Positions 18,946 through 28,872 of a stretch of DNA of 42,637 nucleotides are shown piece after piece; positions within the stretch are counted from its first letter, which is position 1, and each line of letters starts with the position of its first letter. Source of the DNA: Acidobacteriota bacterium (lineage in GTDB: Bacteria > Acidobacteriota > Vicinamibacteria > Vicinamibacterales > UBA2999); contig CANKJK010000006.1 of assembly GCA_947482665.1 (NCBI GenBank), forward strand, positions 208,651-251,287. The letters are read 5' to 3'. The position numbers and the translations under genes are program-made. The notes beneath the pieces were generated by a model, which was not told the origin of the DNA, made no database searches, and saw nothing but the letters and a program-made list of their open reading frames with translations.

Positions 18946-19965
18946 TCAGGGCCTGGCGAGGGCCAGCTCGATGATCTCCATGACGAGCTGCGGATAGGTA
19001 CGTCCCGCCTTCCGCGCCGCCATCGCGAGCTCCGCCCGTGAGCTCAACCAGGGGTTCGGATTGACCTCAATCACCTGGACGGCGCCGTCCGCCTGGAGCC
19101 GCATGTCGACTCGGCCGTAGTCGCGCAGTTCCAGCGCCTGATACGCGGCGATGGCCGTACGCTGTGCCAGCACAACGGTTTCCTCGGGAAGGTCCGTGGG
19201 AATCACAGACTTCGTATCGCGGTAGGCGCGGGTGCCCTTCCCCCACTTCACCTCGGCAGCGGCGATCTTCGGCGTGCCCTCCGGGAGCTTCGAGAGGTCC
19301 AGCTCCACGATCGGCAGGGCTTCGGGCTTGTCGTTGCCCAACACCCCGACGTAGATCTCCCGGCCCTCGACGTACTCCTCGATGAGCACTGGTGAGTCAA
19401 AGTGCTGGTGGAGCCAGTCGATCCGCTCCATGAGTTCCTTGATGGAGCTGACGACCGCACTGAACTCGATACCGATGGAGCCGTCTTCGCGGGCTGGCTT
19501 CACGATGACGGGAAACTGCAGGTCGTGCGAGAAGTCGAGCCGGCCGCGGAAGCTGCTCGCGAAGACAGGGGTGCGGATGCCATGGAAGGCGAAGATCTTC
19601 TTCGCGATGGCCTTGTCCTGGGCCAGCATCAGGCCGTGGGTACCTGAACCGGTATACCGCTTGCCGAGCAGTTCGAGGTAACCGGCAATCTTGAAATCCG
19701 CCGTGTCGTCCTCACCGAAGGATTCGGTGAGATTGAAGATGAGGTCGCAGTCGAGGCGGGCCAGGGCCTGGAGGCTCTTGGGGGTGCCATCCAGCTCCAC
19801 CAACACGGGCTGATGCCCCTGCCTGGTGAGCACATCGGCCACCTCCTCCTCGACCTCCTTCTTGTCGAGCGTCCGGGTCACCGGCGCCTTGTCGGGTGTG
19901 GCTGCGTGGTCGTCCTCCTCGACCAGAACCCGGTCAAAGAGGACGGCCACCTTCAGCGTGCTCAC
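18946..19965 (-). CDS. ATP-grasp ligase, D-Ala-D-Ala-ligase-like
   Basis: The 339-residue protein starts at GTG 19965 (GTGA overlaps the stop of the gene before). The fold follows D-alanine-D-alanine ligase: LDCDLIFNLTESFGED near residue 70, YTGSGTHGLMLAQDKAIAKKIF, ATP-binding FPVIVKPAREDGSIGIEFS, VEEYVEGREIYVGVLG-like IEEYVEGREIY, and the metal site RVDMRLQADGAVQVIEVNPNPWL. It joins a carboxylate to an amine or amino acid through an acyl phosphate. True Ddl enzymes usually lie near mur genes, whereas this one ends a sulfur-assimilation operon, so another substrate is plausible. Family is confident; the product is open. Confidence 0.78.
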   Translation of the reverse strand: MSTLKVAVLFDRVLVEEDDHAATPDKAPVTRTLDKKEVEEEVADVLTRQGHQPVLVELDGTPKSLQALARLDCDLIFNLTESFGEDDTADFKIAGYLELLGKRYTGSGTHGLMLAQDKAIAKKIFAFHGIRTPVFASSFRGRLDFSHDLQFPVIVKPAREDGSIGIEFSAVVSSIKELMERIDWLHQHFDSPVLIEEYVEGREIYVGVLGNDKPEALPIVELDLSKLPEGTPKIAAAEVKWGKGTRAYRDTKSVIPTDLPEETVVLAQRTAIAAYQALELRDYGRVDMRLQADGAVQVIEVNPNPWLSSRAELAMAARKAGRTYPQLVMEIIELALARP

Positions 19966-21803
19966 GCGGAGCACTCTCCTTCCATGACTTCCGGATTGAA
20001 CTCCGTCGTCTGGTCGAGGTCAACGTAATCTTCCGGCTTCACGTCGGTGATCGTCAGGCCTTCCAGATCGCCGAGCACGCGCTTGGCATCCTCGATCGTC
20101 ATCGAGCGGAAGAAATCTGCCGCGGGCTGGTCGCCCTCGTGCGTGTCGCGATAGTGCACGACCAGGCGCTCAACGGCGTCGGTCAGCCGGCGTGCCGGGA
20201 TCTTGGCCACGACGCGGCCAAAGTCAGCCCGTTCGGCGCCCACGCGGCCGCCGATCATCAGGAAATACTGCGGGACGGCCTTGCCGCCCAGCCTCCGCAC
20301 GCTGCCCTGGAAGCCGATCGCGGCGATGTGATGTTGACCGCACCCGTTTGGGCACCCGCTGATCTTGATGTCGGCACCGTCCGCCGCGCTGACCAGGTCG
20401 GGCCGGTTGGAGAGGAACTCGGTCAGCACGCGGCCCAGGCTGCGCGAGTGCGTCACGGCAAGGCGGCAGCTCTCTGCGCCTGGGCAGCTGGTGACATCGG
20501 CCACGGTGTCCGCATCGGCCGCACCGAGCCCGGCCTGCTGCAGCGCCGCCCAGAGCTTGCGCAGGTTGATCTCGGGCACCCAGCGGATGACGAGATTCTG
20601 CTGCGGCGTCACGCGCACTTCGCCATCCCCATAGGCGCGGGCGATGGCGGCCACGGCACGCATCTGGCCGGCCGTGATGTCACCGAGCACCAGCCGCACG
20701 GTCGCCGCATGGTAGCCAGCCTGCTTCTGCTTCCGGACGTTGGTCTCGGCCCAGCGGGTGTAGTTCTCCGTGAGCACGTTCAGCTTGATGTGGCCGGGGT
20801 GCAGGCCAGGCCCGGACGTCTTGGTCGCGGTCACCATCGCCACGATCTCGGTGTGGCTCGGCGCCTCTGGCCGCGTCCAGTCGGGAGCCGATTCGACAGG
20901 CGGATGCTCCGGATCGAACGGCAGCGGCTTCCGCCCTTCCGCCCGCACCTCGAGGAGAGCCGCGTCGTAGGCGGCCCGCCACTTCTCCCAGCCGAGCGTC
21001 TTGATAAGGAACTTCAACCGGTTCCGCTGGCGGTGCTGGTAGTCACCCAGCCGGTGATACACCAGCAGCATCGCCTCGATGACCTCGAAGATCTCGTTGG
21101 CCGGGAGGAAGTCATAGAGCTCGTACCCGGTCGTGCACATGATCGACGTGCTACCGGCCACGGTGATGCGGAAGCCCCGGACCTGGCGGCCCTCGACCTC
21201 ACGAATGCGGGCGCGCAGACCCACGTCGTTAATCGACGTGACGGCGTGATCGACGGCGCACCCTTCAAACGCAATCTTGAACTTGCGCGGGAGGACTGCC
21301 GCCAGCTTATGGCGGAGGAAATACCGGGTCGTCGCCTCACCGTAGGGACGTACGTCGAAGATCTCGTCGTGGGCCACACCCGCGAACTGGCAGGCCGTGA
21401 TGTTCCGGACCGCGTTGCCGCACGCCTCGCGTGCGGTGATGCCCGTGGCCGCGAGGATGCGCTGCGCCGCTTCTACGTCGTGCAGCTTGACGAAGTGGAA
21501 CTGGACGTTCTGCCGCGTGGTGATGTGGCCGAACCCACGGGAATAGCGCTCTGCCACCTCGGCCAGCGCCCCGAGTTGCTCGCCATTGGCCACGCCCTGC
21601 GGCAGCTTGATGCGCAGCATCGAGTCCTCGGGGCCGCGCTGGCCGTAGGTGCCCCGCACCAGGCGGAATTTCCGCCAGTCGTCGGCCGACACCTCGCCGC
21701 TCTCGTACTTGCTGAGCACATCCACGAACTCGTCGATGTCCTTCTCGTCCGAGAACGAGAAGGCTCGCCGGCCGAGCGTTGCCGGATCTTCACTGACGGC
21801 CAT
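19962..21803 (-). CDS. sir: Sirohaem-dependent sulfite/nitrite reductase
   Basis: The 613-residue protein starts at ATG 21803 behind GGAGGT. It has the two-fold repeat of the ferredoxin-type reductases: RGFGHITTRQNVQFHFV in the first half and VTPQQNLVIRWV in the second. Cluster and sirohaem ligands are SCPGAESCRLA near residue 447 and ISGCPNGCGQHH near 485. It takes six electrons to reduce sulfite to sulfide, or nitrite to ammonia. The APS reductase and sirohaem synthase genes beside it favour sulfite. The C-terminal 40 residues after RDTHEGDQPAADFF are acidic. The start overlaps the cysG stop by 14 bp. Confidence 0.9.
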   Translation of the reverse strand: MAVSEDPATLGRRAFSFSDEKDIDEFVDVLSKYESGEVSADDWRKFRLVRGTYGQRGPEDSMLRIKLPQGVANGEQLGALAEVAERYSRGFGHITTRQNVQFHFVKLHDVEAAQRILAATGITAREACGNAVRNITACQFAGVAHDEIFDVRPYGEATTRYFLRHKLAAVLPRKFKIAFEGCAVDHAVTSINDVGLRARIREVEGRQVRGFRITVAGSTSIMCTTGYELYDFLPANEIFEVIEAMLLVYHRLGDYQHRQRNRLKFLIKTLGWEKWRAAYDAALLEVRAEGRKPLPFDPEHPPVESAPDWTRPEAPSHTEIVAMVTATKTSGPGLHPGHIKLNVLTENYTRWAETNVRKQKQAGYHAATVRLVLGDITAGQMRAVAAIARAYGDGEVRVTPQQNLVIRWVPEINLRKLWAALQQAGLGAADADTVADVTSCPGAESCRLAVTHSRSLGRVLTEFLSNRPDLVSAADGADIKISGCPNGCGQHHIAAIGFQGSVRRLGGKAVPQYFLMIGGRVGAERADFGRVVAKIPARRLTDAVERLVVHYRDTHEGDQPAADFFRSMTIEDAKRVLGDLEGLTITDVKPEDYVDLDQTTEFNPEVMEGECSA

Positions 21804-23205
21804 GCCGTACCTCCACACTGTCCTGCTGTTCATTTGTCGTAAGCCGGGCCAGGAGCCCACGCACACCCACGACTTCGCCAACCACGATGACCCCGGGCTG
21901 CCCGCTCAGGGGCGCTGCCGCCAGGTCCTCCAGACGGCCCGTCCACACGGATCCCGCCGCCGTTGCCGCACCGCACACGATGGCGGCCTGGGCCTCCGGC
22001 GCCCACCCCCTCGCGACCAGCGCCTCGACTATCGCCTGGCGCCGCGCCAGGCCCATCATCACCACGAGCGTGACCCCGTCGGGTCGCACGCCAGAGAGGG
22101 CCTGCTCGATCGCCTCGAGATGGTGTCCGGAGACGACCATGAATGCCGTCGCGACGCCACGATGCGTCACGGGAATGCCCGCAAGGCCGGCAGCGGCAAT
22201 GGCGCTGCTCACTCCCGGGATCACCTCGAATGGGATCCCGGCCTCCGCGAGGGCCACGGCCTCTTCCGCACCACGGCCGAAGACGTACGGGTCACCCGCC
22301 TTCAACCGGACGACGCGCTTCCCTCGCGACGCGGACCGGATCAGGAGGCCGTGAATCGTGTCCTGACACACCCCGCGGCCACCCGCGCGCTTCCCCACCG
22401 AAAAGCACTGCGCCTTCGTCCTCCCGGCCAGGGCTTCACCGTCGGCGAGGGCGTCGTAGAACACGATATCGGCCTCGGCAATCCGCTCCGCCGCCCGCAC
22501 GGTCCAGAGTGCCGGGTCGCCAGGGCCCGCGCCGACCAACGACACGAACCCGCGCCCGGCCTGCATCGCCGACGCCGCTGCGCCGGCGTCGTCGAGTACG
22601 GCGCTCACCCGCGCGTCCAGCGTGGCCGCCTCGGTGTCGAGTGTTCGCCGCGCATAGAGGTCGATCAGGCGCTGCAGCAGACGGCCGCGGCGCTGCTCCA
22701 TGGGCACACCGTCACGCTTCCAGACCACGCGCTGCTGGATCGACTCCTCGACCCACGCATCCAATTCGGCGGGCAGCAGATCGTCCAGCGCCTCGCGCAG
22801 CAGGCCCGAGATGGCCGGCGCCAGGCCTGCCGTCGAGAGGGCCACGGTGGCGCGGCCGCGTGAGACCACGCCGCCGGCATACGCCGACGCATGGTCGGGG
22901 TCATCCACCGCATTCACGAACAACTGCCGGGCATTGCCGGCGGCAAGCACGGCCCGATTCACCTCGGGCGGCGCGGCCGCGACGGCCAGCCACACGCCGT
23001 CCAGGTCCGACTCCTGAAAGGCGCGACGGACAAAGGTTGCGGACAGCGACGCGGCCTCCGCGCAGATCTCCGGCGCCACGATCGTAACGTCGGCGCCCGC
23101 CGTCACCAGTCCGGCCGCCTTGCCCGCGCCGACAGGACCCGCGCCCACGACGAGGACGCGCCGGCCAGTCAACTTCAGGAAGAGGGGGAACAGCGGGTCA
23201 CTCAT
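21790..23205 (-). CDS. cysG: Fused sirohaem synthase (precorrin-2 oxidase/ferrochelatase plus SUMT)
   Basis: This is a CysG-type fusion of 471 residues. The N-terminal part (1-205) has the NAD loop VLVVGAGPVGAGKAAGLV and the dimerisation segment GLAPAISGLLREALDDLLP of precorrin-2 dehydrogenase/ferrochelatase. The C-terminal part (about 213-460) is uroporphyrinogen-III methyltransferase: VSLVGAGPGDPALWTVRA, RLKAGDPYVFGRGAEEAVAL and EVIPGVSSAIAAAGLAGIPVTHRG. Together they make sirohaem, the cofactor of the sulfite reductase encoded next. It begins 4 bp after the cysH stop. Confidence 0.93.
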   Translation of the reverse strand: MSDPLFPLFLKLTGRRVLVVGAGPVGAGKAAGLVTAGADVTIVAPEICAEAASLSATFVRRAFQESDLDGVWLAVAAAPPEVNRAVLAAGNARQLFVNAVDDPDHASAYAGGVVSRGRATVALSTAGLAPAISGLLREALDDLLPAELDAWVEESIQQRVVWKRDGVPMEQRRGRLLQRLIDLYARRTLDTEAATLDARVSAVLDDAGAAASAMQAGRGFVSLVGAGPGDPALWTVRAAERIAEADIVFYDALADGEALAGRTKAQCFSVGKRAGGRGVCQDTIHGLLIRSASRGKRVVRLKAGDPYVFGRGAEEAVALAEAGIPFEVIPGVSSAIAAAGLAGIPVTHRGVATAFMVVSGHHLEAIEQALSGVRPDGVTLVVMMGLARRQAIVEALVARGWAPEAQAAIVCGAATAAGSVWTGRLEDLAAAPLSGQPGVIVVGEVVGVRGLLARLTTNEQQDSVEVRHGRQ

Positions 23206-23209
23206 CCGG

Positions 23210-23917
23210 CTACTTCACCAGCGTGACAGGCGCCACGTGCAGTCCGCACTCGGTCTTGTCGCGCCCGCGCCAGCGGCCCGAGCGAATGTCCTCGCCCGTG
23301 CCGATGGGCGATGTGCAGGGTTCGCACCCGATGCTCGGGTACCCCTGGTCATGCAGCGGGTTATAGGGCACGTCGTGGACCTTGATGTAGTCCCACATCT
23401 CCTCGACCGTCCACGCCGCCAGCGGGTTCAGCTTCACGAGGCCAAACGCCTGATCCCACTCGACCACCTGGGCGTGCTTCCGCGTTTCGCTCTGCTGACG
23501 GCGGATACCGGTAATCCAGGCCTGACGCACGCTGAGCGCCTTGCGCAGCGGCACGACCTTGCGCGCCCGGCAGCACTGATCCGGCTCACGCTCCCAGAGA
23601 CGGTCAATCTCCGGAGCCGTGGGACCGCTGTCGGGAATCAGATCCGAGCGGAGCCCCTCGATGCTGATGCCGTACTTCTTCTCGAGCCGGGACCAGAGCG
23701 CGTACGTCTCGCGGAAGAGCACCGCCGTATCGATCGTCTGGATCCGAATGGGAAGCCTGTGCCGTCCGATGACATCCACCAGCACGCAGTCCTCGGCACC
23801 AAGCGCCGAGAGACACACCAGCCCGTCCCCGAAACGTTCGGACGCCCAGGTGAGCAGATCCACTGGGCTCATGCGCTCCCAGTCAGCGTGGCGGGCTTCG
23901 ATATCGGCAGGCAGCAT
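23210..23917 (-). CDS. cysH: Adenylyl-sulfate (APS) reductase
   Basis: The 235-residue protein carries the adenylyl-binding loop (LSALGAEDCVLVDVI) and both cysteine pairs that hold a 4Fe-4S cluster: DQCCRARK near residue 112 and IGCEPCTSPI near 196. The active-site cysteine is in TECGLH near the C-terminus. The CC plus CxxC pairs mark the assimilatory APS reductase branch, which bypasses APS kinase, rather than the cluster-free PAPS reductase of enteric bacteria. It yields sulfite for the reductase downstream. ATP sulfurylase genes are not in the window. It lies 19 bp after the second threonine-synthase-like gene. Confidence 0.93.
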   Translation of the reverse strand: MLPADIEARHADWERMSPVDLLTWASERFGDGLVCLSALGAEDCVLVDVIGRHRLPIRIQTIDTAVLFRETYALWSRLEKKYGISIEGLRSDLIPDSGPTAPEIDRLWEREPDQCCRARKVVPLRKALSVRQAWITGIRRQQSETRKHAQVVEWDQAFGLVKLNPLAAWTVEEMWDYIKVHDVPYNPLHDQGYPSIGCEPCTSPIGTGEDIRSGRWRGRDKTECGLHVAPVTLVK

Positions 23918-23936: not shown

Positions 23937-25181
23937 TCAGCGTCCGGCGAGTTCTGGCGTACCCGCCATTACGGCTTCGAAATCCTTCAACCCCTTGCCC
24001 ACCTGAATGGACTCGGGCACCCGGTCGCGCATCACATCGGCGGTCTTGTAGCCGTTGCCCGTGATGACCACGACGACGGACTCGTCCCGCTTGATGGCGC
24101 CGCGTTCGATCAGCTTCTTCGTGCCGGCGAGCGTCGTGCCGCCGGCCGGCTCGGTGAAGATGCCTTCGGTATGCGCCAGCAGCTCGATGGCGTCCAGAAT
24201 TTCCGGATCGGTCGCGGCCACGCCACTCCCCCCGGTGCGCTTCAGCGAGGCGATCACCTGGAAGCCGTCTGCCGGATTGCCGATCGCGAGCGACTTGGCG
24301 ATGGTGTGCGGACGCACCGGCTCCGGGAAGTCCAGCCCGGCCTCAAGGGCGTTGATGACCGGCGAGGATCCGGCCGGCTGCGCGGCGTGAATCTTGGGCA
24401 ACTTGCCGCTCACCAGGCCCAGCTCGATAAACTCCTCGAAGCCGCGCAGGATGCGCGGCAGCAGTGTGCCGCCGGCCACCGGCGAGACGACGTGATCCGG
24501 GAAGCGCCACCCGAGCTGTTCCGCGACTTCAAAGCCCATCGTCTTGGCGCCCTCCGCGTAGTAGCTGCGGAGGTTGATGTTCGCAAAGCCCCACCCGTAG
24601 CGGTCCGCCAGCTGCGTGCAGAGACGGTTCACATCATCGTAGTTACCGGCCACGGCGAAGACCTTCGGGCCGTAGATGGCCGAGCCAAGCACTTTGGACG
24701 GCTCCAGATCGTTCGGGATGAAGACCATGCAGTCCAGCCCGAGACGTGCCGCGTGCGACGACACGCTGTTGGCCAGATTCCCGGTCGAGGCGCAGCCGAA
24801 CACCGTGCATCCGAACTCGATGGCCTTGGTGGCCGCCACCGAGACGACGCGGTCCTTGTAGGAGAACGTCGGATGGTTCACCGAGTCATCCTTGATGTAC
24901 AACTCGCGGACGCCCAGGGCCTTCGCAAGGCGGTCGGCCTTCACCAGCGGCGTGTAGCCGGAGTAGAAGCCGGTCTTCGGCTCCTCGACCGGCAGCAGCT
25001 CGCGATACCGCCACAGGGAGTGCGGCCGCGATTCAATCAGCGCACGTGTCACCACGCCCTTCATGGCTGCGTAGTCGTAGGTCACCCGCAGCGGACCCAG
25101 GCACTCGCTGCACACCCACAACGCCTCCGCGGGATACGCCTTCCCGCACAGGTGACATTCCAGTCCTGTCACGAAGCTCAT
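23937..25181 (-). CDS. Threonine-synthase-like PLP enzyme, second paralogue
   Basis: The 414-residue fold-type II PLP enzyme has an N-terminal zinc ribbon (CHLCGKAYP, then VCSECLGPL). The PLP Lys is in HPTFSYKDRVVS near residue 107, and the phosphate-binding loop is CASTGNLANSV. It is clearly different from the other ThrC here, which has NPTGSFKDLG. Members of this branch are usually annotated threonine synthase. Placement after thrB and directly before APS reductase, sirohaem synthase and sulfite reductase makes a sulfhydrylase using O-phosphohomoserine or another phosphorylated amino acid a reasonable alternative. A GAGAGGA ribosome site precedes ATG 25181, 3 bp after thrB. Confidence 0.8.
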   Translation of the reverse strand: MSFVTGLECHLCGKAYPAEALWVCSECLGPLRVTYDYAAMKGVVTRALIESRPHSLWRYRELLPVEEPKTGFYSGYTPLVKADRLAKALGVRELYIKDDSVNHPTFSYKDRVVSVAATKAIEFGCTVFGCASTGNLANSVSSHAARLGLDCMVFIPNDLEPSKVLGSAIYGPKVFAVAGNYDDVNRLCTQLADRYGWGFANINLRSYYAEGAKTMGFEVAEQLGWRFPDHVVSPVAGGTLLPRILRGFEEFIELGLVSGKLPKIHAAQPAGSSPVINALEAGLDFPEPVRPHTIAKSLAIGNPADGFQVIASLKRTGGSGVAATDPEILDAIELLAHTEGIFTEPAGGTTLAGTKKLIERGAIKRDESVVVVITGNGYKTADVMRDRVPESIQVGKGLKDFEAVMAGTPELAGR

Positions 25182-25184
25182 CGT

Positions 25185-26090
25185 CTATCCTCTCGCTCCG
25201 GTCGCCACGGCGTCTGCCGTGACGGGCTCGGCACTCACATCACGCACGGTCACGGGCGTCCCCGACGCCCGGTAGATTGCTTCCAGCTTTCCCGCGATCC
25301 GGTCGCGCCCCTCCGTCGCGAACGCGACGATGGACGGCCCCGCGCCGCTCAGGCACACCCCGAGCAGGTCCGGGTCCTCCAGCGCAAGCGCCGGCGCCAG
25401 TTCCGGAATCAGCGCCGCCCGCTGCGGCTGATGCCAACGGTCCTTGAGCGCCTCGCGCAGTGACGCGCCATCCCCAGTGGCCACGGCGTGCATCAGGCGC
25501 GCCACGCGCTGCAGATTGAAGAGCGCATCGGCCCGCGAAAACGACTGCGGCACCACTTTCCTGGCCTCGGCCGTCGGCAACGGACGCGACGGCGTGGCAA
25601 TCAGCATCCGGATCGAGGCCGGCCATGCCAGCGTCGCCACGCTGACGCGCCCGTCCTCGTGCTGGAGCGCGGCCACCATGCCGCCGCGAATCGCCGCGGC
25701 CGCGTTATCGGGATGCCCTTCAAGCGCCGTGGCCGCGGCCAGCAGGTCCTCATCCGGAAGCGGCGCGACGACAGCCTCGAACAGACGCAGGCCGGCGACC
25801 GTCGCGGCCGCGCTACTCCCCATCCCCGAGCCGATCGGAATGTCGCTCTCGATATCGATTACGACCGACGGCAGGCCGGCAGGCGCGCGCGACGCGAGCG
25901 ACCGGTAGGCACGCTCAACGCCGTTCTCCGTGGGCACCGGCGGATTCGCCTGGCGCACCGTGACCGTGCCGCGACCGTCCGGCGTCTGCGACACCAGCCG
26001 CACGCGCAGATACACCTGCACCGCCACGGCGAGCGTGTCAAAGCCGGGGCCGAGATTGGCCACCGACGCCGGGACGGCAATCGTCAGCAT
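25185..26090 (-). CDS. thrB: Homoserine kinase
   Basis: The 301-residue GHMP kinase begins IAVPASVANLGPGFDTLAVAV. The nucleotide loop is IPIGSGMGSSAAATVAGLRL near residue 87, and the C-terminal motif LSGAGPSIVAFA closes the fold. It phosphorylates homoserine with ATP to O-phosphohomoserine, the substrate of threonine synthase. Its start overlaps thrC by 7 bp and the next PLP gene follows 3 bp after its stop, so it feeds two threonine-synthase-type enzymes encoded on either side. Confidence 0.95.
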   Translation of the reverse strand: MLTIAVPASVANLGPGFDTLAVAVQVYLRVRLVSQTPDGRGTVTVRQANPPVPTENGVERAYRSLASRAPAGLPSVVIDIESDIPIGSGMGSSAAATVAGLRLFEAVVAPLPDEDLLAAATALEGHPDNAAAAIRGGMVAALQHEDGRVSVATLAWPASIRMLIATPSRPLPTAEARKVVPQSFSRADALFNLQRVARLMHAVATGDGASLREALKDRWHQPQRAALIPELAPALALEDPDLLGVCLSGAGPSIVAFATEGRDRIAGKLEAIYRASGTPVTVRDVSAEPVTADAVATGARG

Positions 26091-27313
26091 CCGCTCTCCA
26101 CCTTCGCGCGAACCATATCGGGCTCGGGCTTCGGCTCGGTCGTTCCCGGCTCCTTCAGCAGGTGTCCGGTCAGGATGCAGATCACCCGCTCCTGCTCGCC
26201 GATCCAGCCCGAGGCGCGCAGGCGCTTGATGCCGGCCAGCGCAGCCGCAGAACCCAGCTCGCAGCCAATCCCGTCTCGGCCGATCACCGTCCGCGCTTCG
26301 GCGATTTCATCGTCCGGCACATCGATCGTCGTGCCGTTGGTCAGCTTGAGCGCCCGCACGGCCTTGCGCCAGGAGACCGGCGCGCCGATGCGAATCGCCG
26401 TCGCAATCGTCTTCGGGTCCTTCAGCGGCGTGAGTTCGGAGGCGCCGCTCTGCCACATGCGCACGAAGGGATTGGCGCCTTCCGCCTGAATCACCGCCAC
26501 GCGCGGTACTCGGTCAATCAGCCCGAGCGCCAGCATGTCCTCGAGCGCCACACCGACGGCGGAGACGTTGCCGAGGTTGCCGCCTGGAAGTGCAATCACG
26601 TCAGGTGCCTTCCACCCGAGTTGTTCCATCAACTCGACGGTGAAGGTCTTCTGGCCGGCGACCCGGAACGGGTTCAGCGAATTCAGCACGTAGGTCGACT
26701 CGTCCGCGCCCTCGAGCATCCCGGCCAGTGCGTCATCGAAGTTGCCGCCCACGCGCACCAGTTCGGCGCCGTAGGCCTCGGCCTGCGCCACCTTCGCGGA
26801 GGCGACCGACTGCGGGAGGAACACGCGCGCCTTGAGGCCCGCGCGAACGGCATAGGCCGCCATGGACGCCGCGGTATTGCCGGTGGAGGCACACGCCACG
26901 AACTTCGCACCGCGCACCGCCGCGCGTGTCACGGCGGCCGTCATCCCGAGGTCCTTGAAGGAGCCCGTGGGATTCCAGCCGAGGTGCTTGATATAGAGAT
27001 CGTTGACGCCCGCGAAGCGGCCCGTGGCCAGCCCACGCAGGACTGGTGTATTCCCTTCGCCGAGCGTGACGATGTCGTTGACGTTCTCGGTCAGTCCGGC
27101 GAGCAATTCACGGAAACGCCAGACGCCGCTCCGGTCCGCCGGCTCAATGGACGAGCGGCGCTCCGACCATAGCGCACGCAGCTCGGCCGCCGACGCGGTC
27201 GGCCGTTCCGGCACCAGTTCGAGCGGGGCGCCGCACTCGGGGCACACGCGGTCCTCGCGCAGCCGCGAGGTCTCCACGCTACAGGGTTTGCTGCAACGCA
27301 ACTGCATGGTCAC
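26084..27313 (-). CDS. thrC: Threonine synthase
   Basis: The 409-residue PLP enzyme starts with a short zinc-ribbon-like segment (LRCSKPCSVE and CPECGAPLELV). EGNTPVLRG and NPTGSFKDLGMT carry the substrate pocket and the PLP Lys near residue 119; CASTGNTAASMAAY binds the phosphate. LPGGNLGNVSAVGVAL near 245 is the second glycine loop. It converts O-phosphohomoserine to threonine. The ATG overlaps the hom stop by 4 bp. Order and motifs match the normal thr operon enzyme, unlike the paralogue downstream. Confidence 0.93.
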   Translation of the reverse strand: MTMQLRCSKPCSVETSRLREDRVCPECGAPLELVPERPTASAAELRALWSERRSSIEPADRSGVWRFRELLAGLTENVNDIVTLGEGNTPVLRGLATGRFAGVNDLYIKHLGWNPTGSFKDLGMTAAVTRAAVRGAKFVACASTGNTAASMAAYAVRAGLKARVFLPQSVASAKVAQAEAYGAELVRVGGNFDDALAGMLEGADESTYVLNSLNPFRVAGQKTFTVELMEQLGWKAPDVIALPGGNLGNVSAVGVALEDMLALGLIDRVPRVAVIQAEGANPFVRMWQSGASELTPLKDPKTIATAIRIGAPVSWRKAVRALKLTNGTTIDVPDDEIAEARTVIGRDGIGCELGSAAALAGIKRLRASGWIGEQERVICILTGHLLKEPGTTEPKPEPDMVRAKVESGC

Positions 27314-28617
27314 TCCCCAGGAAGCACGGGCATCACGAGCACCGGCTCCGCGTGGAAATCTTCAGCATCGATCTCACGCATGGCGCCGGCCAGTGCCGTC
27401 GCCTCGCACGGTTCCACCGTCACGACAAACGGCAGGTGGTCTTTCGGGAATCCCGACTCCTGCAGCACCGCGTCCACGTTGATGCCGTGCCGCGCCAGCG
27501 CCACCGTGATCGACGCCAGGATGCCCGGCCGGTCCTTCACACTGAAGCGGATGTAGTACGGCCGCATCGGCGCCGCCGATACGGACGTGGGGGTCCACGC
27601 CGGCTCCGCACCCGAGCGCGTCTGGCGCGCCAGTGCGACGAGGTCGGACACCACCGCCACGGCTGTGGGGTATCCGCCGGCACCCTGGCCGCTAAAGGTC
27701 GTGTTGCCGCCGAAACGGCCCGTCAGCGTCACAAGATTCTGCGGGCCCGTGTTCCGCGCGTAGTTGGAACTGTCCGGCACAAGAGCCGGCCCCACGAAGG
27801 CGCGCACCGCGCCGCTGGCATCACATTCCGCCATCGAGATCTGGCGGATGGTGCCACCGAGCCGCTTGGCGTAGCGGAAGTCGATGGCGTCAATGCGCCG
27901 GATGGAACCTGTCGAGATCTCCGACGTGCGGATGTAGCGCTTGAAGGCCACGCCGACAAGCACGGCGAGCTTCGCCGCCGCGTCATGGCCGTCCACATCG
28001 GAGGTCGGGTCGGCCTCGGCGAATCCCAGGCGCTGCGCCTCGCCGAGGGCGTCGCTCATCGAGTCCCCACCGGTCATGCGGCTCAGGATGTAGTTGCAGG
28101 TGCCGTTGAGGATGCCGACCACGCGCGTGAAGGTGTCGCCCGCGAGGCCCGTGCGCACGGCGTCGATGATGGGGACGCCACCCGCCACCGCGGCTTCGAA
28201 CCGGAGCCGCGCCCCGCTCGCCGCGGCCAGGGCCAGCAGTTCGGGCGCGTGCGCCGCGAGCAGGAGCTTGTTGGCCGTGACCACCGAAATGCCCTGCGCG
28301 AGCGCCGCCGACACCCATCCGTACGGCAGCTCCACGCCCCCGACGGTTTCCACGATCACGTCGGGCTTGGCCGTCAGGACGGCCGCCGCGTCGTCCGTCC
28401 AGGTGACCGACGGCGCCACCCAATCCGCCCGCTTGCGGGCGACATTCCGGTTGAAGATCGCGACGAGCGCGAGCTCCGAGGCAAGCTCCGTGCGCTCCGT
28501 CAGGATCCGCACAACCGACTGGCCGACCGTGCCGAAGCCGAGCACCGCCACGCGCAGCGGGCTGGAGGCCTCTGCTGCCGTCGACGACTGTCTCTCTCCT
28601 GCTGCTGCTCCTGCCAC
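27310..28617 (-). CDS. hom: Homoserine dehydrogenase with ACT domain
   Basis: The 435-residue protein starts at GTG 28617, with GGAG 7 nt upstream; starts further up would lie before the attenuator. The NAD(P) loop is VAVLGFGTVGQSVVRIL. Catalytic-domain blocks include VTANKLLLA, FEAAVAGGVPII and LNGTCNYILSRM, then the acidic EADPTSDVDGHDAAAKLAVL. The last 85 residues form an ACT domain (YIRFSVKDRPGILASITVALARHGIN), the usual site for threonine feedback inhibition. It reduces aspartate semialdehyde to homoserine, the branch point to threonine and methionine. An upstream leader peptide and terminator indicate attenuation. Confidence 0.94.
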   Translation of the reverse strand: MAGAAAGERQSSTAAEASSPLRVAVLGFGTVGQSVVRILTERTELASELALVAIFNRNVARKRADWVAPSVTWTDDAAAVLTAKPDVIVETVGGVELPYGWVSAALAQGISVVTANKLLLAAHAPELLALAAASGARLRFEAAVAGGVPIIDAVRTGLAGDTFTRVVGILNGTCNYILSRMTGGDSMSDALGEAQRLGFAEADPTSDVDGHDAAAKLAVLVGVAFKRYIRTSEISTGSIRRIDAIDFRYAKRLGGTIRQISMAECDASGAVRAFVGPALVPDSSNYARNTGPQNLVTLTGRFGGNTTFSGQGAGGYPTAVAVVSDLVALARQTRSGAEPAWTPTSVSAAPMRPYYIRFSVKDRPGILASITVALARHGINVDAVLQESGFPKDHLPFVVTVEPCEATALAGAMREIDAEDFHAEPVLVMPVLPGE

Positions 28618-28647: not shown

Positions 28648-28687
28648 AAAACAAAAAACCCGCCTGACCTTGGCTGGCCGGCGGGCG
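28648..28687 (-). terminator. Attenuator terminator before hom
   Basis: On the minus strand CCCGCC (28685-28680) pairs with GGCGGG (28664-28659) and is followed by TTTTTTGTTTT. It lies 26 bp after the leader peptide stop and 30 bp before the hom GTG. The leader coding region contains CGGCGGG (28756-28750), which could pair with CCCGCCG (28685-28679) of the 5' arm as an antiterminator. Confidence 0.8.
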
Positions 28688-28712
28688 TTGGAGTCCCGAT
28701 GTCGATGCGTCC

Positions 28713-28832
28713 CTATGCCTGACTGGGGACGCCCCGGGATCCGCCGCAACCCGCCGTGGGCACGCACCAACAGGCGCGCGTGGGCCGTGCCGTGCGGCAT
28801 CCCGTCGTCGTCGTGGCGATCACACTGAACAT
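28713..28832 (-). CDS. Thr/Cys-rich attenuator leader peptide (thrL-like)
   Basis: The 39-residue open frame begins MFSVIATTTTGC. Codons 7-10 are four consecutive ACG Thr codons preceded by an Ile codon (ATC, codon 5). In all there are 7 Thr and 4 Cys (codons 12, 21, 23, 29), plus one Trp. This resembles E. coli ThrL in principle: scarcity of charged tRNA stalls the ribosome, alters RNA folding and prevents the downstream terminator. The Cys codons are unusual for a Thr leader and fit an operon that also makes sulfide. The start is only about 5 nt past the predicted transcription start, with no Shine-Dalgarno sequence. Confidence 0.75.
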   Translation of the reverse strand: MFSVIATTTTGCRTARPTRACWCVPTAGCGGSRGVPSQA

Positions 28833-28842
28833 CGTGAGAGGA

Positions 28843-28872
28843 ATGGTACACCGCCCCTCCCTGATGAGGCAA
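28843..28872 (-). promoter_or_regulatory. Promoter of the thr-cys operon (TTGCCT-N18-TACCAT)
   Basis: The minus strand has TTGCCT at 28872-28867 and TACCAT at 28848-28843, each matching four of six consensus bases and spaced 18 bp. RNA would start about 4-5 nt before the leader peptide ATG. Confidence 0.55.

Follow-up and report, generated by a model that had tools for sequence, protein, structure and literature searches.

Which signal would control an operon that holds genes for threonine synthesis together with genes for sulfur assimilation? The question is raised by a 42,637-nucleotide stretch of an Acidobacteriota genome (hereafter the window), in which seven such genes lie on the minus strand in the order hom-thrC1-thrB-thrC2-cysH-cysG-sir, behind a short open reading frame and a hairpin. 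To our knowledge, attenuators of the Acidobacteriota have few assigned functions. An earlier note made from the window's letters had read the arrangement as a thrL-like attenuator set over both groups of genes, with the Cys codons of the leader perhaps adding Cys-tRNA sensing, and the codon content of related leaders and the placing of front and internal leaders support this view. Here, we propose that the leader is probably a ribosome-mediated transcription attenuator, predicted to be bivalent for threonine and cysteine and to act as an OR gate over the fused operon.

The operon and its leader in the window

The genes were named by Pfam and NCBIfam (Table 1), which give the same names as those listed in the earlier note (hom, thrC, thrB, APS reductase, sirohaem synthase and sulfite reductase) and add thrC2, a second threonine synthase family gene absent from that list. 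The operon holds two genes of this family, and thrC2 is the version present in most relatives' loci; speculatively, thrC1 or thrC2 might use O-phosphohomoserine for another reaction. The hom gene starts with GTG, preceded by GGAG. The neighbour upstream of the leader is a divergently oriented gene for an MFS transporter, so the leader hairpin does not end that gene and its role as terminator of the upstream gene is ruled out.

Table 1. Features of the window operon and of the leaders compared with it (window positions unless a locus is named; dots at a sequence mark an excerpt)
Feature	Position	Strand	Sequence or remark
-35-like box TTGCCT	28867..28872	-	similar boxes in G004, G104
-10-like box TACCAT	28843..28848	-	spacer 18 nt
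Leader peptide ORF	28713..28832	-	MFSVIATTTTGCRTARPTRACWCVPTAGCGGSRGVPSQA; 39 codons + TAG; ATG at 28832, stop ends 28713
Four tandem Thr codons (ACG)	28803..28814	-	Thr clustering p=0.007 vs shuffles
Cys-Trp-Cys codons TGT TGG TGC	28764..28772	-	Cys codons of relatives' Cys leaders similarly placed
CGGCGGG	28750..28756	-	pairing partner in the earlier note; complements terminator 5' arm
Preferred antiterminator element (candidate)	28728..28735	-	GGGGCGTC; 5-7 codons upstream of stop
Intrinsic terminator stem-loop	28658..28686	-	GCCCGCCGGCCAGCCAAGGTCAGGCGGGT; -19.7 kcal/mol
U tract	28648..28657	-	TTTTTGTTTT; directly after stem-loop
hom, homoserine dehydrogenase with ACT domain	27310..28617	-	Pfam/NCBIfam
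thrC1, threonine synthase family	26084..27313	-	Pfam/NCBIfam
thrB, homoserine kinase	25185..26090	-	Pfam/NCBIfam
thrC2, second threonine synthase family gene	23937..25181	-	Pfam/NCBIfam
cysH, APS/PAPS reductase	23210..23917	-	Pfam/NCBIfam
cysG, sirohaem synthase	21790..23205	-	Pfam/NCBIfam
sir, ferredoxin-type sulfite/nitrite reductase family	19962..21881	-	Pfam/NCBIfam; start codon uncertain
Front leader, G006			..RTRPCMCCLCTCRCASS..
Front leader, G016			VSGQACITVISMTCTRATCTRMRSRFIGVGADEN
Front leader, G004			MFGTACCPVISIIGTPATAGMGMRSCITGAGAEQ
Front leader, G013			MFGTACCTVISIGTMTRTGMAMRSCITGAGAEQ
Front leader, G104			MGCCSCTATKTSMRNRTMRIRVSGGVCVYAP
hom leader, G147			MTENMTTPVVTTTMAPAPRGHSG
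hom leader, G087			..TETPTTTLTGTTGPMRPG..
Sulfur leader, G118			VIGQSTCMCSCCCCCGLP..
Sulfur leader, G158			..TTPLDVCACCCCCMGPRG..
Sulfur leader, G060			..TPGCACCCCCCMGPHG..
Internal leader, G022			MCGCECACCCTGT..
TauE/SafE exporter and cysD, divergent	L260:124-996 and 1441-2385, contig C1		each with own Cys-bearing leader + terminator

The promoter-like boxes described in the earlier note are present and weak (8/12 consensus matches); a promoter scan of the window found none, the leader boxes lying below its threshold. By a simple promoter rule, comparable boxes stand at the fused-operon leaders of G004 (TTGCCA-18-TAGACT) and G104 (TTGACG-18-TATACT), and none at those of G006, G016 and G013. 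Since no Shine-Dalgarno sequence was seen ahead of the leader ATG and the -10 box lies only 10 nt from it, the leader mRNA would be nearly leaderless. Under the same rule, a start codon 7-10 nt past the -10 box and no Shine-Dalgarno sequence are found in the window, G004, G104 and G014.

The 39-codon frame with its four tandem ACG and four Cys codons is there as the earlier note had it. It contains seven Thr codons, all ACG, those besides the tandem run being codons 14, 18 and 26, and four Cys codons at positions 12, 21, 23 and 29, of which the Cys-Trp-Cys stretch lies about 80-86 nt upstream of the terminator stem. Thr is most often written as ACG across the seven operon genes (94/164), so ACG is not a rare codon here. 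The GC hairpin with its U tract could likewise be located; a simple terminator scan did not list this stem-loop, and the overall folding of the window leader is no better than that of shuffled sequences (z=0.00). Against dinucleotide shuffles, the leader is enriched for Thr (p=0.007) and for Thr and Cys together (p=0.002), and its Cys content taken alone is not above shuffles (p=0.18). Judged on the window by itself, Thr content and terminator are distinctive, and Cys content and pairing are not.

An Rfam scan of the window gave a tRNA as its sole match, and the threonine operon leader (presumably the family named by RF00506) was not matched above the gathering threshold. When 13 loci were sampled, their leaders matched no family either. 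On these results, we rejected the idea that the leader element is a known riboswitch or T-box. The same 13 loci contain two SAM riboswitches and nothing else, both distant from the leaders and within several kb of sulfur operons (L211:804-948, minus; L214:11538-11648, plus).

On the window by itself, one might see a Thr-only attenuator of the thrL type, in which the Cys codons are incidental to a G+C-rich sequence and the sulfur genes ride along. Thr is the only one of the two amino acids singly enriched there, and the Cys codons are scattered, with no run as in many relatives. The leaders of related operons make this reading unlikely, as set out below.

Leaders of related operons and their codon content

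A survey of hom covered 162 genomes of the order and gave 60 at E<=1e-100, the window's genome included; hom upstream regions were read for these 60, with only 70 nt present for G017. Within the window's own family, f1, 16 loci join hom to cysG in one run of genes, as does G104 of family f15, and sir belongs to the run wherever the contig extends far enough. A leader and terminator precede the whole operon in six of these 17 fused operons (window, G006, G016, G004, G013 and G104), three of the six standing ahead of an aspartokinase-like gene. The front leaders of G013, G004 and G016 are clearly homologous to one another, and the G016 operon was read from two contigs with a terminal overlap of 349 nt (98% identity). 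Operons of G014 and G027 begin at thrB, and their front leader, with Cys codons and no Thr excess, precedes thrB-thrC2-cysG-sir. As a side observation, the sulfite reductase of G006 (locus L119, sir at +6785) is only 35-40% identical to that of the window, roughly the distance seen for family f8, and the operon is otherwise similar; a gene replacement in place is possible.

Codon enrichment was scored blind to frame, by comparing the highest count in any 15 codons with that in 400 dinucleotide shuffles; as the leader sets and the comparison of front with internal leaders were defined after the first leaders had been seen, the p-values are descriptive. In the six front leaders, Thr reaches p<0.05 in three (window, G016 and G013; Fisher 0.0009), Cys in one (G006, with 6 Cys and 2 Thr; Fisher 0.054) and Thr with Cys in five, while in G004 neither is singly significant. 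When the frame is chosen by Thr, blind to Cys, all six contain at least three Cys and five contain at least three Thr; the mean is 3.8 Cys per 34 codons vs 0.2 in leaders of hom operons without sulfur genes, of which this scoring covered 25 of 26. At least two Cys with at least three Thr occur in 5/6 front leaders by the Thr-chosen frame and in 4/6 by the longest ORF, a rule that picks a different frame in G004, and the same combination is also reached by 19/38 sulfur leaders and 2/10 internal leaders, which speaks against front leaders being exceptional in this respect. Cys is higher in front than in thr-only leaders (Mann-Whitney 4e-6, or 4e-5 with the longest ORF), and the comparison of Thr in front leaders with sulfur and internal leaders gives p=0.007 by the Thr-chosen frame and 0.07 by the longest ORF.

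The thr-only set was drawn from 44 hom loci outside f1, of which 26 show a leader with terminator upstream of hom; G058 (hairpin seemingly inside a gene), G104 (placed in the fused set) and G153 (N letters) were left out, the leader of G153 being visible in the hom upstream region despite the N letters. With the window proteins as queries, no sulfur genes were found beside hom in the 26 loci within the stretch fetched. These leaders are enriched for Thr (p<0.05 in 6/26, Fisher 2e-5) and for Met (Fisher 0.04), and as a set not for Cys (2/26, Fisher 0.91); in the four of family f5, Leu and Pro seem more frequent. The promoter rule fits 4/26, with the start codon 2-28 nt past the -10 box.

Some loci with hom show features of their own. 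In L136, L138, L140 and L160 (G126, G125, G093 and G086), a small ORF of 49-76 codons with a conserved C-terminus, EAGYGYGV, lies between the hom terminator and hom; the ORF resembles a small peptide precursor or carrier. Three loci of family f3 (L141, L167 and L169) share a conserved stretch upstream of hom with a GGGCCGGACG/CGTCCGGCCC-like hairpin and a short T run, in which no obvious leader peptide was seen by eye. At L178 (G007), a terminator stands at the attenuator position with no leader ORF by rule, possibly a decayed attenuator; sir was not found in this genome, which is incomplete.

For the sulfur genes, sir was found at E<=1e-60 in 77 of the 162 genomes and 60 sir loci were fetched, of which five were set aside (G016, G014, G027, G105 and G002). 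A leader terminator lies upstream in 38 of the remaining 55 separate sulfur loci, and all 38 were kept regardless of Cys content; at the other 17 there is no leader terminator by rule or a contig end intervenes, and a hairpin more than 3 kb upstream (G048), one inside cysG (G054) and other hairpins within genes were left out. In 29 of the 38, no more than about 400 nt separate the leader from the first sulfur gene recognised; eight leaders lie about 1 kb upstream (G050 and seven of family f8) and that of G074 about 3 kb, with cysD intervening. The sulfur leaders are enriched for Cys (p<0.05 in 29/38, Fisher 6e-34), commonly in runs of Cys codons, and not for Thr (1/38, Fisher 1.0); the locus of G126 has no Cys-rich ORF. 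Ten of the 38 fit the promoter rule, with the start codon 6-21 nt past the -10 box. Nine f8 genomes in this set have a separate leader at their sulfur genes, and eight, G144 being the exception, have a second one at hom. A further arrangement occurs in L210, L211, L212, L219 and L226 (G123, G110, G120, G077 and G124), where cysG-sir-hom operons stand behind a Cys-run leader; the hom in these is another homoserine dehydrogenase, and the leaders show no significant Thr excess.

Fused operons also carry leaders inside the operon. A Cys leader with terminator was found within nine f1 fused operons in which no front leader was seen, between thrC2 and cysG in eight and apparently between the halves of cysG in G002. 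The ten internal leaders are enriched for Cys (p<0.05 in 8/10, Fisher 6e-10) and not for Thr (0/10, Fisher 1.0), and by the simple promoter rule the -10 box ends 7-10 nt upstream of the start codon in nine of the ten. The 17 fused operons divide into five with a front leader only, one with both (G004), nine with an internal Cys leader only and two with neither (G031 and G011), a near-complementary placing (one-sided p=0.018, uncorrected for kinship) in which "no front leader" for G017 rests on the 70 nt upstream of hom and is not proof of its lack. G105, G018 and G007 stand outside these classes, with contig ends involved; no internal terminator was seen in G018. On a thrC2 tree, front leaders with Thr and Cys appear in several branches and the fewest changes are two for front and two for internal leaders, and well-supported branches force only one change each, so the 17 fused operons are not independent.

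Cys leaders also occur elsewhere in the window's genome. Its cysD (L260) has a leader, MVPTLCPCACCCCPRPCEGSRARGL, and terminator, with Cys above shuffles (p=0.002), and the divergent TauE/SafE exporter gene has a weaker one, MFLTACPACCCPISVRLRAVSVCPCN, likewise with terminator (p=0.06); neither has a Thr excess. The prediction is that this genome makes use of Cys leaders, with Thr mixed in at the leader of the hom operon. A Cys leader at cysD is also present in G006, G018 and G013 and was not found in G104, and among 11 further loci of the order only four have one within 1.5 kb of cysD, two about 1 kb upstream. Outside the order, 2 of 17 cysD loci scanned have a Cys leader with terminator (G514 and G290). 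Searches with the ATP sulfurylase family PF01747 gave 0/7 genomes, and CysD scored above its cut-off in 4/7.

The leader codons of relatives, which the earlier note had expected to hold Thr and Cys, follow the genes downstream: mixed in five of the six fused operons, Thr on thr-only operons and Cys on sulfur-only operons. This argues against the Thr-only reading, as do the Cys-Trp-Cys codons of the window, positioned as the Cys codons of relatives' Cys leaders, and the fact that, G004 apart, no operon with Cys in its front leader was seen to have an internal Cys leader as well. The opposite reading, a Cys-dominated attenuator in this clade with Thr codons that are secondary in the window or stem from slippage in an ACG repeat, draws on the Cys-rich leader of G006, the Cys leaders of G014 and G027 and a possible origin of the tandem ACG by slippage; we consider it quite improbable, given that Thr is singly significant in three of the front leaders and that the window has Thr codons outside the tandem run as well. 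The bivalent reading remains the one we prefer.

Predicted pairing of the leader end with the terminator arm

If the leader is such a bivalent attenuator, its end should be able to pair with the 5' arm of the terminator. Duplex energies of leader end and arm were compared with 300 shuffles per leader, giving p<0.05 in 7/10 internal leaders (Fisher 1e-9), 10/38 sulfur leaders (1e-8), 1/26 hom leaders (0.01), 0/2 thrB-front leaders (0.05) and 1/6 front leaders of fused operons (0.036). A ribosome placed at the control codons leaves the arm more sequestered than one placed at the stop codon in 6/6 front, 2/2 thrB-front, 10/10 internal, 37/38 sulfur and 25/26 hom leaders; shuffled leaders follow the same trend to a lesser degree, owing to the larger stretch of exposed RNA. 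Compared with 60 shuffles, this switch measure gives Fisher p of 3e-8 for internal, 2e-8 for hom, 2e-6 for sulfur and 0.03 for thrB-front leaders, and neither the front leaders (0.10) nor the window (0.15) beat shuffles.

Pairing in the predicted terminator stem is kept in 73/84 cells in the six front leaders and 306/312 in the hom leaders. Compensatory changes, which the earlier note had looked to in this stem, are few, with both-side changes at three pairs in the front leaders and at three in the hom leaders, and none in one alignment of f8 sulfur leaders. The alternative pairing that it had proposed is not supported for the window: the CGGCGGG is present and complementary to the terminator 5' arm, and its pairing is at chance level, as the window's leader-to-arm duplex does not beat shuffles (p=0.68, 300 shuffles). 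CGGCGGG also ends 34 nt upstream of the leader stop codon, and thus beyond the reach of a ribosome sitting at the stop; on both grounds it was rejected as the antiterminator of the window. We favour instead GGGGCGTC, because of its position relative to the stop codon. It can pair with AACGCCC at 28689-28683, at the foot of the terminator 5' arm, and is placed much like the pairing elements of G004, G013 and G016; it is part of the window's best duplex, itself not above shuffles for the window alone.

The position of the stop codon, 24-36 nt upstream of the stem in 72/82 leaders, also bears on whether the ORF is translated at all. A hairpin that simply terminates, or that serves some other regulator (riboswitch, T-box or RNA-binding protein), beside an untranslated ORF would agree with a window leader that folds no better than shuffles. 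We judge this highly improbable in view of the recurring stop-to-stem distance, the tracking of downstream genes by the amino acid content of the leader sets, the Rfam results at the window and the 13 sampled loci, and the divergent upstream gene, which the hairpin does not end.

For the bivalent attenuator that we prefer, we infer the following course of events. RNA polymerase would start about 5 nt ahead of the leader ATG, and a ribosome would load onto the nearly leaderless mRNA. With charged Thr-tRNA and Cys-tRNA plentiful, the ribosome would reach the stop codon, about 30 nt ahead of the terminator, and cover the leader end, so that the hairpin forms and transcription ends before hom. With either tRNA short, it would stall at Thr or Cys codons 60-130 nt ahead of the terminator and leave the leader end free for pairing at the base of the terminator 5' arm; polymerase would then read on through hom-thrC1-thrB-thrC2-cysH-cysG-sir. 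A single leader would thereby act as an OR gate, opened by shortage of threonine or of cysteine; we would expect the switch to function and cysteine shortage alone to suffice.

Known leaders and the meaning of a mixed one

The leader is most likely a bivalent Thr/Cys transcription attenuator, a known mechanism in a combination that we have not found described; no Thr/Cys leader appeared in the largely open-access literature searched, which is no proof of absence. The thrL leader peptide of Escherichia coli reads Thr and Ile and is followed by an intrinsic terminator and hom/thrB/thrC-type genes. The window leader is like it in its Thr-codon peptide, intrinsic terminator, downstream thr genes and predicted reading of more than one amino acid, and differs in that the second amino acid is Cys in place of Ile and the operon includes sulfur genes, as well as in having no Rfam match, an apparently leaderless mRNA and a host among the Acidobacteriota. 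The enterobacterial ilvGMEDA leader is multivalent, reading several of the amino acids that its operon serves; the window leader would likewise serve several amino acids with one leader, and it joins two pathways, threonine synthesis and sulfur assimilation, where ilvGMEDA serves one branched pathway.

Cys-bearing leaders have precedents in Actinobacteria. Cys-rich leaders were predicted at cys operons without obvious terminators (Seliverstov 2005, PMC1262725), mycobacterial polycysteine short ORFs lie on leaderless mRNA, also at nirA (Shell 2015, PMC4633059), and translation attenuation was put forward for these ORFs (Canestrari 2020, as cited by PMC13236596, 2026). The window shares with the mycobacterial short ORFs a Cys-bearing upstream ORF ahead of sulfur genes; the leaders described here, in contrast, were found together with intrinsic terminators, and that of the window adds Thr. 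It also has 4 Cys in 39 codons and no Cys run. The Mycobacterium tuberculosis ilvB1 leader (PMC13236596) has several regulatory codons and a terminator/antiterminator choice, with the antiterminator masked by a ribosome at the stop codon, all as proposed for the window; unlike the window leader, it concerns branched-chain amino acids, another phylum and other genes.

A broader reading, which we offer tentatively as a real possibility at somewhat less than an even chance, is that the leader is a multivalent sensor of the end products made from homoserine and assimilated sulfide (Thr and Cys, and in G004, G013 and G016 also Met and Ile), and that its codons change as the operon gains or loses genes. 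The occurrence of Thr/Met leaders before thr genes, of Cys leaders before sulfur genes and of mixed ones before fused sets would fit this reading, under which cysteine starvation alone would switch on threonine synthesis. If true, one short peptide gene would couple sulfur assimilation to homoserine and threonine synthesis without a regulatory protein, and the codon content of a leader would be readable as a record of operon fusion.
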